From the NCBI GenBank assembly GCA_016869515.1, contig VGDZ01000030.1, forward strand, positions 1-34,943: a stretch of DNA of 34,943 nt, written 5' to 3'. This DNA is from Alphaproteobacteria bacterium (GTDB taxonomy: Bacteria > Pseudomonadota > Alphaproteobacteria > VGDZ01). This document shows positions 4,778 through 34,667 of the stretch, in pieces (position 1 is the stretch's first letter; each line of letters opens with the position of its first letter). The position numbers and the translations under genes are program-made. The notes under the pieces are model-generated. The model was not told where the DNA came from. It made no database searches and saw nothing but the letters and a program-made list of their open reading frames with translations.

Positions 4778-4814
4778 GAAAGGCGCATGCCCGCGCGGAA
4801 CGGCGCGAAAAAAC

Positions 4815-5100
4815 GCCGGTTCGGCACTATTAAGCGCGGAACGAGTCCCCAAAGGCGCGGAGCCGAGGCGGAAATGCGCGGAAATGCGCGCAAACGGCCA
4901 ATTTTTAACCACCCATGTCTTTGATTGTATTGATGAATTAAGGTATGTCGGGTGCAAGAGCCGCAATTGGCCGTTAACCCCTGCCTCCGCCCCGGACTTG
5001 AACGCGGGACGGATAGCAAGGGAGGCCATAGGGTAGGGCGGTCCTTCGATAGGTTGGTAGAAGAACAGTATATATAGCGAACATTGCAGAACTTGTCAAG
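4815..5100 (-). repeat. Dispersed ~260-bp repeat, copy A (direct partner at 30315-30591)
   Basis: Aligns with 30315-30591 in the same orientation. The core 4834-5020 aligns without gaps, and by hand I count about 23 differences over about 188 bp. The outer 5060-5100 segment is also conserved after a 9-nt length difference. Within it: words AAAGGCGCG, AAATGCGCG, AAATGCGCG and AAACGGCCA begin at 4851, 4872, 4882 and 4892, spaced 21/10/10 (one DNA face). Inverted arms AACGGCCAATT (4893-4903) and AATTGGCCGTT (4965-4975) enclose a 61-nt loop. A minus-strand promoter sits at the right end (see 5071-5099). It lies between ivd and the MntA/HepT pair. No transposase and no target-site duplication are evident. 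Confidence 0.88.
5071..5099 (-). promoter_or_regulatory. Sigma-70-type promoter inside repeat A, with GAAC-N6-GAAC in the spacer
   Basis: On the minus strand: -35 TTGACA (5094-5099), a 17-nt spacer, and -10 TATATA (5071-5076), a near-consensus housekeeping promoter. The plus strand shows GAAC at 5079-5082 and 5089-5092, 10 bp apart, both inside the spacer and thus placed like a repressor site. Transcription would start near 5064 and run through the repeat toward the 3' end of ivd. The same arrangement is kept in copy B. It resembles the alphaproteobacterial LexA operator (GAAC-N7-GAAC) but is one base shorter. Confidence 0.6.
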
Positions 5101-5236: not shown

Positions 5237-5548
5237 ATGCTGGCATTGTCCGACGATACCCGCGAACGCATCGCGGCGCTGTGCCGCCGCCACCGCGTCG
5301 CGCGGCTGGAACTGTTCGGCTCGGCGCGGACCGAACGCTTCGATCCGACGCGCAGCGACGCCGACTTTCTGGTCAGTTTCGAGCCGGCTTCGCGCGACGA
5401 TCTGACCGCCTACCTCGATTTCAAGGAGGGGCTGGAGGCCCTGCTGGGACGGCCGGTCGACCTGATCGAGCGACGTGCGATCGAGGCCAGCCGCAACTAC
5501 ATCCGTCGCCGCCGCATCCTGGGCGAAGCCGAGGCGGTATTTGGCTAA
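5237..5548 (+). CDS. mntA: MNT-type nucleotidyltransferase antitoxin (MntA family)
   Basis: A 103-aa minimal nucleotidyltransferase. The NTase motif is G28-S29 followed by S40-D41-A-D43 in FGSARTERFDP..SDADFLVSF, with the third acidic residue D75 in PVDLIE, so the active site looks intact. In characterised MntA/HepT systems the antitoxin neutralises the HEPN RNase by adding AMP units to a tyrosine of HepT. Its stop codon (5546-5548) overlaps the start of the HEPN gene, and the pair is transcribed toward the CoA operon. It lies 136 bp from dispersed repeat A. The ATG at 5237 has no strong ribosome site. Confidence 0.85.
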   Translation: MLALSDDTRERIAALCRRHRVARLELFGSARTERFDPTRSDADFLVSFEPASRDDLTAYLDFKEGLEALLGRPVDLIERRAIEASRNYIRRRRILGEAEAVFG

Positions 5549-5897
5549 GGCCGACCCCGGCCGCGACGCGGCCTTGCTGTTGGACATGGTTCTGGCCGCG
5601 CGCGATGCGAGGGGATTCCTGTCCGGTGTCGACAAGGCAGCCTTCTTGGCCAGCGCGCTGCATCAAAGCGCGGTGATTCGGAAATTGGAAGTCATCGGCG
5701 AGGCGGCGGGCAGGGTCTCGACTGAATTGCGCGCCAAGCACGCGGCCGTGCCATGGCGCGAGATCATCGGCATGCGTCATCGACTGATCCACGGCTACGA
5801 CGATATCGACCTCGACACGGTCTATGCCGTGGTGCGCGACCGGCTGGGCCCGCTGATCGCCGCGCTGGAACCCTTGATTCCCAAGGACCAGGTTTGA
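5541..5897 (+). CDS. hepT: HEPN-domain toxin (HepT / DUF86 family)
   Basis: A 118-aa all-alpha HEPN protein, the likely RNase toxin of the pair. The catalytic motif R-x4-H-x-Y is complete: R79, H84 and Y86 in MRHRLIHGYDDID. The tyrosine is the residue that MntA AMPylates in studied systems. I chose the TTG at 5541, which overlaps the antitoxin stop by 8 nt and gives a normal-length N-terminus. An ATG at 5586 would remove 15 residues, including the start of the first helix. The gene ends 36 bp before a palindromic repeat that separates it from the convergent CoA-transferase gene. Confidence 0.83.
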   Translation: MAKADPGRDAALLLDMVLAARDARGFLSGVDKAAFLASALHQSAVIRKLEVIGEAAGRVSTELRAKHAAVPWREIIGMRHRLIHGYDDIDLDTVYAVVRDRLGPLIAALEPLIPKDQV

Positions 5898-5933: not shown

Positions 5934-5989
5934 AGGGCATGATCGATCTGTCTTGAACCGCCCGGTTCATGACGAAACGATCATGCCCT
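5934..5989. repeat. Palindromic intergenic repeat, family 1, copy 1
   Basis: The outer arms AGGGCATGATCG and CGATCATGCCCT are perfect 12-mers. The inner arms GAACCG/CGGTTC close a 2-nt loop. The middle arms pair only partly. It lies between the convergent hepT and CoA-transferase genes, where it could end transcription from both sides, although no T-tract follows. Related copies lie at 12579, 33802, 34535 and 34609. Confidence 0.85.
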
Positions 5990-33801: not shown

Positions 33802-33860
33802 AGGGCTTGATCCGCGATCGGCCTTGAACCATGCGGATCGTGACCGATCGATCTTGCCCT
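33802..33860. repeat. Palindromic intergenic repeat, family 1, copy 3
   Basis: AGGGCTTGATC at the left end and GATCTTGCCCT at the right, with middle arms CGATCGG/CCGATCG and a degenerate centre TTGAACCATGCGGATC. The outer arms have a two-base mismatch that is repaired in copy 4. It lies between the convergent caspase-FGE and higA genes. Confidence 0.8.
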
Positions 33861-34189: not shown

Positions 34190-34468
34190 CTAGCGGTAGT
34201 CGACCAGATCGACATCGGCGACGTGGGTGCCGACGAAACGGAAGACGATCCGCCAATTGGCGGATACGCTCACCGACCAAAAGCCCGCCCGATCGCCTTT
34301 CAGGGGGTGCAGGCGATAGCCGGGCAGGTCCATGTGCCCGGGCGCCGAAGCCTGGTCGAGGCGGGCCAGGATGCGCGCGATCTTGTCGGCGGATTCCGGC
34401 GGCACGCGCCGCCGCTCGCCCCGCTCGTACAGCAGCCTAAGCCCTTTATGGCGAAAGCCGACGATCAC
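34190..34468 (-). CDS. higB: HigB-family mRNA interferase toxin
   Basis: A 92-aa RelE-superfamily toxin. The start is a GTG at 34468, giving the family N-terminus [M][16 protein letters not shown]. It is followed by [40 protein letters not shown] and VDYR, the full HigB core including the basic active-site region. The toxin should cleave mRNA on the ribosome. No ribosome site precedes the GTG; a promoter ends 6 nt upstream, so the message may be leaderless. Confidence 0.92.
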
Positions 34469-34503: not shown

Positions 34504-34534
34504 GCGCCGGTGGCTCGGACAGGATGCGGTGCCG

Positions 34535-34591
34535 GGGCAAGATCGTTTCGTCGCCAACCAGACGGATCGTGACGAAACGCGAATCTTGCCC
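34535..34591. repeat. Palindromic intergenic repeat, family 1, copy 4
   Basis: The outer arms GGGCAAGAT/ATCTTGCCC are perfect. The middle arms CGTTTCGTC/GACGAAACG are perfect and unlike those of other copies. The centre CCAACCAGACGGATCG is degenerate. Confidence 0.82.
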
Positions 34592-34608: not shown

Positions 34609-34667
34609 AGGGCATGATCGATCCGCCTAGAACCATGCGGTTCAGGGCGGATCGCGGATCATGCCCT
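34609..34667. repeat. Palindromic intergenic repeat, family 1, copy 5
   Basis: The outer arms AGGGCATGATC/GATCATGCCCT are perfect. The middle arms GATCCGCC/GGCGGATC and inner arms GAACC/GGTTC around an ATGC loop are also perfect. This is the best-paired member, 17 bp after copy 4. Confidence 0.88.

Follow-up and report, generated by a model that had tools for sequence, protein, structure and literature searches.

The window analysed here, a stretch of 34,943 nt corresponding to contig 30 of an alphaproteobacterial genome (G000; 3.69 Mb in 166 contigs), carries two copies of a repeat, and the question raised by this locus is what kind of element it is and what reads it. The initial annotation described a two-copy repeat built around helically phased words, arranged as in a protein-bound array, and located between a housekeeping gene and a toxin-antitoxin-like pair. 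We surveyed the whole assembly for further copies, mapped their flanks and analysed the aligned family for periodicity, covariation and resemblance to known elements.

An apparently lineage-specific family of dispersed copies

The genome-wide search proposed in the initial annotation gave 35 BLAST matches to copy 2 in G000, while a sequence profile built from 27 copies recovered 36 distinct dispersed loci in the 3.69-Mb genome (E<1e-10). With 36 copies, not two, the two-copy description does not hold and a single recent duplication is excluded. Copies 1 (4794–5033) and 2 (30294–30533) align in the same orientation, as had been described, and do so without gaps at 82% identity; over the 188-bp core we counted 29 differences instead of the approximately 23 given earlier. 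The element also begins before positions 4815 and 30315, where it had been taken to start: its left end lies at around 4794/30294, where the array reaches the upstream gene, and its right end at a minus-strand CTTGAC box (~5100/30591). Core positions are numbered below from window position 30294 (copy 2) or 4794 (copy 1), and the features of the window are collected in Table 1. The right halves of the element are mosaic among copies, and the members of a near-identical pair, L013 and L021 (95.6% over 339 bp), have unrelated flanks.

Table 1. Features of the two window copies of the element and of their surroundings.
Feature	Position	Strand	Remarks
Copy 1, left periodic wing	4794..4908	+	~11 helical turns, 16 nt after the acyl-CoA dehydrogenase stop codon; 10.5-bp GC period, power 20.0
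Copy 1, AT-rich aperiodic centre	4909..4944	+	TTGAT and AATC conserved columns; near-match to IHF site
Copy 1, right periodic wing	4945..5004	+	family-mean periodicity
Copy 1, predicted sigma70-like promoter	5071..5099	-	TTGACA-N17-TATATA, leftward, GTTC-N6-GTTC inside; right boundary of family homology
MntA-HepT type toxin-antitoxin pair, right of copy 1	5237..5897	+	Pfam NTP_transf_2, HepT-like
Duplicated ligA 3' end, 85 bp (AGSKLTQARALGVAVPSEAERRKLLAG*), carried with copy 2 to the nrdR locus	30187..30271	+	alignment with L005, translation
Copy 2, left periodic wing	30294..30408	+	power 21.8, highest among all copies
Copy 2, AT-rich aperiodic centre	30409..30444	+	conserved; family GC profile aperiodic here
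Copy 2, right periodic wing	30445..30504	+	family-mean periodicity
Copy 2, predicted sigma70-like promoter	30562..30590	-	TTGACA-N17-TATGTA, leftward
Short zeta/AAA_33-like ORF, right of copy 2	30907..31191	+	weak; Pfam AAA_33 6.9e-07
Second palindromic repeat, copies in the window	5934-5989, 33805-33850, 34534-34579, 34609-34654		

A counterpart of copy 2 (L005) is linked to ligA, which encodes a full-length LigA there (Pfam). At L005 a caspase gene, a paralogue of that at window 31526–33586, directly follows the element; in the window, ~830 bp with a zeta-like ORF that is absent at L005 separate copy 2 from the caspase-FGE gene. Because both flanks are common to copy 2 and L005, copy 2 is part of a segmental duplication, which was subsequently split at the right end of the element; the same shared flanks led us to abandon one-ended transposition from the ligA copy. 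The gene at 31526–33586 encodes a protein with caspase (Peptidase_C14), SH3_3 and FGE-sulfatase domains. Its paralogues are located right of two other repeat copies (C149, C32), and partial DNA similarity was seen at a third (C9). The caspase and FGE-sulfatase domain pair is known in targets of diversity-generating retroelements.

Other small repeats accompany the element. A second dispersed repeat is palindromic (AGGGCATGATCG...GAACCG / CGGTTC...CGATCATGCCCT); in the window some of its copies flank a gene for a HigB-like toxin (34190–34468), a further toxin gene bordered by repeats, and it also adjoins phased-element copies L003, L010, L011, L012, L022 and L026. A third one, with an inverted core (GCGTTGACCGGGCACGGTCAACGCG), was found at ~30780–30806 of the window and near many other element copies.

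The source genome is the sole member of its genus, family and order among the genomes compared, and the identity of its 16S fragment to Azospirillaceae reaches ~85–86% at most in a comparison with plasmid-borne 16S copies, so that it represents a deep alphaproteobacterial lineage. Searches of 385 alphaproteobacterial genomes, none of the same order, gave chance-level matches only, and a 19-nt array word had 13 single matches and no family members in 85k genomes. Phages, plasmids and viral contigs contained no match to the element. In Rfam, the window had no match at the gathering threshold, and 17 loci searched at E<=2 gave three sub-threshold matches to microRNA models only.

Helical phasing and the aperiodic centre

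The 170-bp core of the element aligns almost without gaps at a mean column identity of 70% and is exactly 170 bp long and gap-free in 23 of 30 copies; the clear core indels, +10 (L020), +11 (L028) and +32 (L012), correspond to about whole helical turns. GC content oscillates at 10.5 bp with a normalised power of 22.9 (permutations reach 12.4 at most), and each individual copy has its peak at 10.3–10.6 bp. For comparison, 366,000 background windows were drawn from 390 kb of the genome: all 36 copies exceed the 99.9th percentile of background periodicity and 35 exceed the highest background window (12.0). The AAA(T/G)GCGCG-type words pointed out in the initial annotation do begin 21, 10 and 10 bp apart (4851, 4872, 4882 and 4892; 30351, 30372, 30382 and 30392). 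The helically phased array proposed there stands and is consistent with a site that is bound or wrapped by protein, but it is not confined to three words and extends over ~115 bp and a second wing.

The pattern is conserved as GC/AT class more than as base sequence. Agreement in S/W class peaks at lags 10, 20–21 and 31 with a modest rise in within-class identity, and G<>C exchanges account for 30% of the differences in the array versus ~20% in the centre. In the close pairs L001/L005 and L010/L011 the right half is nearly identical, and the array differs in patches yet stays periodic. These patchy differences may plausibly stem from an exchange of array segments among copies, which would itself demand that the phase be preserved. 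The array contains partial tandem units of 10 and 21 bp; a simple slippage repeat was nonetheless rejected, since such runs are short and class agreement persists where base identity shows a modest rise. A coding sequence was rejected as well, in line with the earlier view that no coding function explains the repeat: some copies have stops in every frame, no frame is open in all copies, there is no 3-bp period and the indels are not multiples of 3. Left of the core, copies L008, L010, L013, L016 and L006 carry a further tandem array of longer units (e.g., GAGAGTCGCGCACACTTGCGCGCA, ~24 bp), which is possibly an extension of the phased array.

The family-mean GC profile is periodic over positions 1–115, aperiodic and AT-rich over ~116–151 and periodic again, with a phase shift, over ~145–211. 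In the right wing the family mean has a period of 9.9–10.7 (windows 145–191 and 152–198; permutation p<=0.018), and the centre is aperiodic (positions 116–162, all copies pooled; permutation p 0.37). The best contrast was obtained at position 124, with wing amplitudes of 0.230 and 0.138 and a centre of 0.037. Among the aligned copies, neither the conserved centre nor the array displays RNA covariation, and a structured RNA over this part was rejected.

A similar layout is on record for DNA gyrase. The Topo-Seq motif of the E. coli enzyme spans 130 bp, namely 47 periodic (10.75 bp), 36 central and 47 periodic positions, and high scores for this motif are obtained with BIME-2 elements (PMC6379681). 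A GC periodicity of 10–11 bp is common to the gyrases of all three species tested (PMC12324340). By our measure, the strong gyrase site of phage Mu, taken at its annotated cut site, has wings of 0.118 and 0.146 and a centre of 0.108, the latter not low, so that a single site shows the tripartite pattern uncleanly. Gyrase cut sites further prefer -4G/+8C, -2A/+6T and +1G/+4C (PMC12324340). In the family, the bases -4G, -2A, +6T and +8C are unconserved, with no copy having all four at any of the seven best-scoring positions, and the cut-site base score has a weak local maximum at 124–125.

The GC phase of the wings also fits any DNA-wrapping protein. The array could be a site of polymerisation or wrapping for a protein other than gyrase, either nucleoid-associated of the IHF/HU type or an Lrp-like oligomeric regulator, which would insulate the 3' end of a gene from the module beyond. 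The same phasing evidence speaks for such a protein, as do the near-match to an IHF site in the centre (AATCAAAGACATG vs WATCAANNNNTTR), an array longer than gyrase wraps and the position of the element between a housekeeping gene and toxin-antitoxin modules. However, one mismatch to the IHF site is fixed, the copies have no regulator gene linked to them, and the wing-centre-wing layout closely matches gyrase; we consider this explanation worth keeping in sight but rather unlikely.

Gene neighbourhood and a putative opposite-strand leader

Both window copies lie just 3' of a housekeeping gene, as had been noted, coding for an acyl-CoA dehydrogenase (ivd-like) in the case of copy 1 and NrdR in the case of copy 2. 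Mapping the flanks of the family, also suggested earlier, showed that in 26 of 35 copies a co-oriented gene has its 3' end toward the left end of the array (binomial p=0.006). About 16 copies are located within 25 nt of a stop codon, often 2–25 nt after it, although single gene ends may be off in these calls, which come from a simple codon-score script. The remaining nine copies are positioned upstream of a gene, including groES and rpsF (Pfam) and an FtsH-like gene (by inspection). The toxin-antitoxin-like pairs reported beyond the window copies were recovered as MntA-HepT and as the zeta-like ORF, the latter weak and short. Across the family, toxin-antitoxin genes occur right of the element within ~1.3 kb in 11 of 33 copies (zeta-like, MntA-HepT twice, RelB-YafQ, PIN-Phd, Fic/Doc, DUF4258-MqsA, HEPN-NTase, ParD, ParE and HipA) and on the left, where translations were read by eye, in none (Fisher p 0.0004, computed with 10/33). 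As a control, 20 small genes elsewhere were sampled and ten scanned, two of which were toxin-like. It is plausible that toxin-antitoxin modules were inserted at the element's right end.

Dispersed copies and a near-identical pair with unrelated flanks could also be the remains of a non-autonomous, MITE-like mobile element that spread and decayed without any cellular function, its period being a by-product of the duplication of 10- and 21-bp units. The partial tandem units, the constant CTTG at one end and the seemingly exchanged array patches agree with such an origin, which we nevertheless hold to be improbable. No terminal inverted repeats or target-site duplications were seen in the near-identical pairs inspected, and RAYT (Y1_Tnp) transposases are absent from the genome, the controls of this search being positive. 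Moreover, the copies diverge by 30% with almost no indels but whole turns, are biased in orientation and distance toward gene ends and keep a covarying leader hairpin (see below). A search for Y2 transposases of IS91/ISCR-like rolling-circle elements, which have CTTG as target, had 0 matches in the genome, with control genomes equally silent.

Homology within the family ends at CTTGA(C/A), which forms the -35 box of a predicted minus-strand promoter. A sigma70-like promoter was seen on this strand in 10 copies and is perfect (TTGACA-N17-TATAAT) in L013, L021 and L055, while several copies have lost it and kept the array. Many full-length copies hold, in addition to what was described initially, a predicted opposite-strand promoter and an rRNA-like leader. 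The leader, found on the minus strand of 15 copies, comprises a hairpin and GCTGATGGACAAGTGAAA, with the motif GCTGATGGA(C/A)nnGTGAA, which neither window copy has. In these 15 copies the hairpin closes 1 nt before GCTGATGGAcnnGTGAAA. A strong hairpin at exactly the -1 offset is present in 13 of the 15, and the best hairpin energies average -17.6 kcal/mol at this offset versus -4.8 one base further, a control independent of the folding-based strand choice. The outer seven pairs are 94.5% standard, and covariation amounts to 1.126, compared with 0.304 when shuffled and <=0.34 when slid, with the caveats that the 5' strand of the hairpin was picked by folding and that two copy pairs are recent duplicates.

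Besides the elements, the leader model finds one further strong site, the leader of the 16S rRNA operon (C49; E 2.7e-7), which shares 17 identical nt with L013 (GCTGATGGACAAGTAAA); searched across the class, the model gave weak single matches at chance level. At the matching place, rRNA leaders of Azospirillaceae have a hairpin and TCTTTGACAAGT...GAGAAGGGATG. Alignment of the leader to the Azospirillaceae boxA region beats nearly all shuffles in two of three comparisons, and the third is weak (48/500 shuffles as good). In E. coli, boxB and boxA follow just after promoter P2 and constitute an antitermination signal (PMC10250234). Based on this order, the shared motif and the Azospirillaceae alignments, we read the minus-strand motif, with moderate confidence, as a boxB/boxA-like leader, although the first half of the motif deviates from the boxA core. 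In locus L118 (C49), ~270 nt before the 16S gene, GCTGATGGACAAGTAAAGG occurs where Azospirillaceae carry TCTTTGACAAGT, and may be a divergent boxA in the rRNA leader of this lineage.

Two other readings were discarded. A three-codon mini-ORF (ATG GAM NNN TRA) at the leader motif fits 14 of 15 copies; against it, one copy is out of frame and the ATG lies too close to the closing hairpin to allow a ribosome site. A hammerhead ribozyme (CUGAUGA...GAAA) was rejected by inspection, as it has no stem II. No intrinsic terminator was found on either strand. On the minus strand of L013 and L021, near position 340, the perfect sigma70 promoter overlaps GTTC-N7-GTTC, the alphaproteobacterial LexA box; SOS control of some copies is possible.

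The promoter sequence, the covarying 5' hairpin, the boxA-like motif and the lack of a coding frame would suit a family of non-coding RNA genes transcribed from the right end behind an rRNA-like leader, with the DNA phasing incidental, but we judge this very doubtful, because the most conserved half (centre and array) is without RNA covariation and yet strongly phased, phase being of consequence only for double-stranded DNA, and because promoter-less copies retain the array and Rfam holds no match.

A putative DNA-wrapping site and its known counterparts

The explanation that we favour, tentatively and at somewhat less than an even chance, is a lineage-specific, dispersed BIME-like element that wraps DNA, with gyrase as the likeliest partner and with an opposite-strand promoter and leader. 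The ~11 phased turns, the ~36-bp AT-rich centre and the ~5 turns beyond it would cause the DNA to wrap around a complex of proteins, for which gyrase is the best candidate. Each copy would then represent a strong, BIME-like gyrase site at the 3' end of a gene, where transcription piles up positive supercoils. The right-end promoter and leader would drive a Rho-resistant, untranslated transcript convergently across the element, and this convergent transcription would make the element a collision point of supercoils, resolved by gyrase. Gyrase wrapping, right-end transcription, antitermination and the convergent supercoil trap are all steps that we infer from sequence features. Against gyrase, the cut-site signature is missing, the left wing is overlong and the window copies are without the boxA-like motif; moreover, the toxin-antitoxin neighbours are left unexplained by this reading.

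It seems unlikely, though conceivable, that the chromosome as a whole possesses ~36 built-in strong gyrase sites, the complete copies of which are coupled to an rRNA-like antiterminated promoter directed toward the 3' end of the neighbouring gene, with supercoils made and resolved at fixed points. A supercoil-domain system of this sort, if true, would be previously undescribed.

The sequence preferences of gyrase are diffuse, and most of the mapping has been done in E. coli. With 36 aligned sites of strong phase in one natural family, the way in which sequence directs DNA wrapping would become open to comparison, and the family would indicate an independent origin of BIME-like topological elements in this deep alphaproteobacterial lineage. 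Its coupling to an rRNA-like leader would connect antitermination with the topology of the chromosome. Even with a partner other than gyrase, no other sequences in the ~390 kb of the genome examined are phased at 10.5 bp as strongly as these, and the phase must have some reader.

In the literature we found no gyrase-linked or helically phased repeat family in alphaproteobacteria. Among known systems, CRISPR leaders provide one parallel, as boxA at CRISPR arrays has been reported in work cited in PMC7862264: in the element, too, a predicted promoter and a boxA-like signal precede an untranslated repetitive array, which, unlike CRISPR, has no spacers and no CRISPR-type direct repeats. With the rRNA operon leader the element shares a predicted promoter, a hairpin of variable sequence and then a motif also found in the genome's own rRNA leader; in contrast, its leader precedes the conserved centre and phased array instead of rRNA and is missing from the window copies.

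Like BIME/REP sequences, some of which bind gyrase or IHF, the element is extragenic, present in many copies, mosaic in its right halves and located at gene 3' ends. It contains no REP palindrome unit, however, and its hallmark is helical phasing; an identity with REP/RAYT elements was rejected because of the absence of a Y1 transposase and because the repeated unit is a phased array and not a palindrome. It is best read as a lineage-specific extragenic interspersed element, probably of gyrase-site-like DNA with unrelated sequence and an added transcription leader. From the gyrase motif and the strong gyrase site of Mu it differs in a left wing of 115 bp versus 47, in a conserved centre without the gyrase cleavage preferences and in forming a dispersed 36-copy family with an opposite-strand promoter, and its membership in the class of gyrase sites is only putative. 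It nonetheless resembles gyrase-wrapped DNA in its geometry, having the same 10–11 bp alternation of GC and AT and two wings around an aperiodic centre of ~36 bp.
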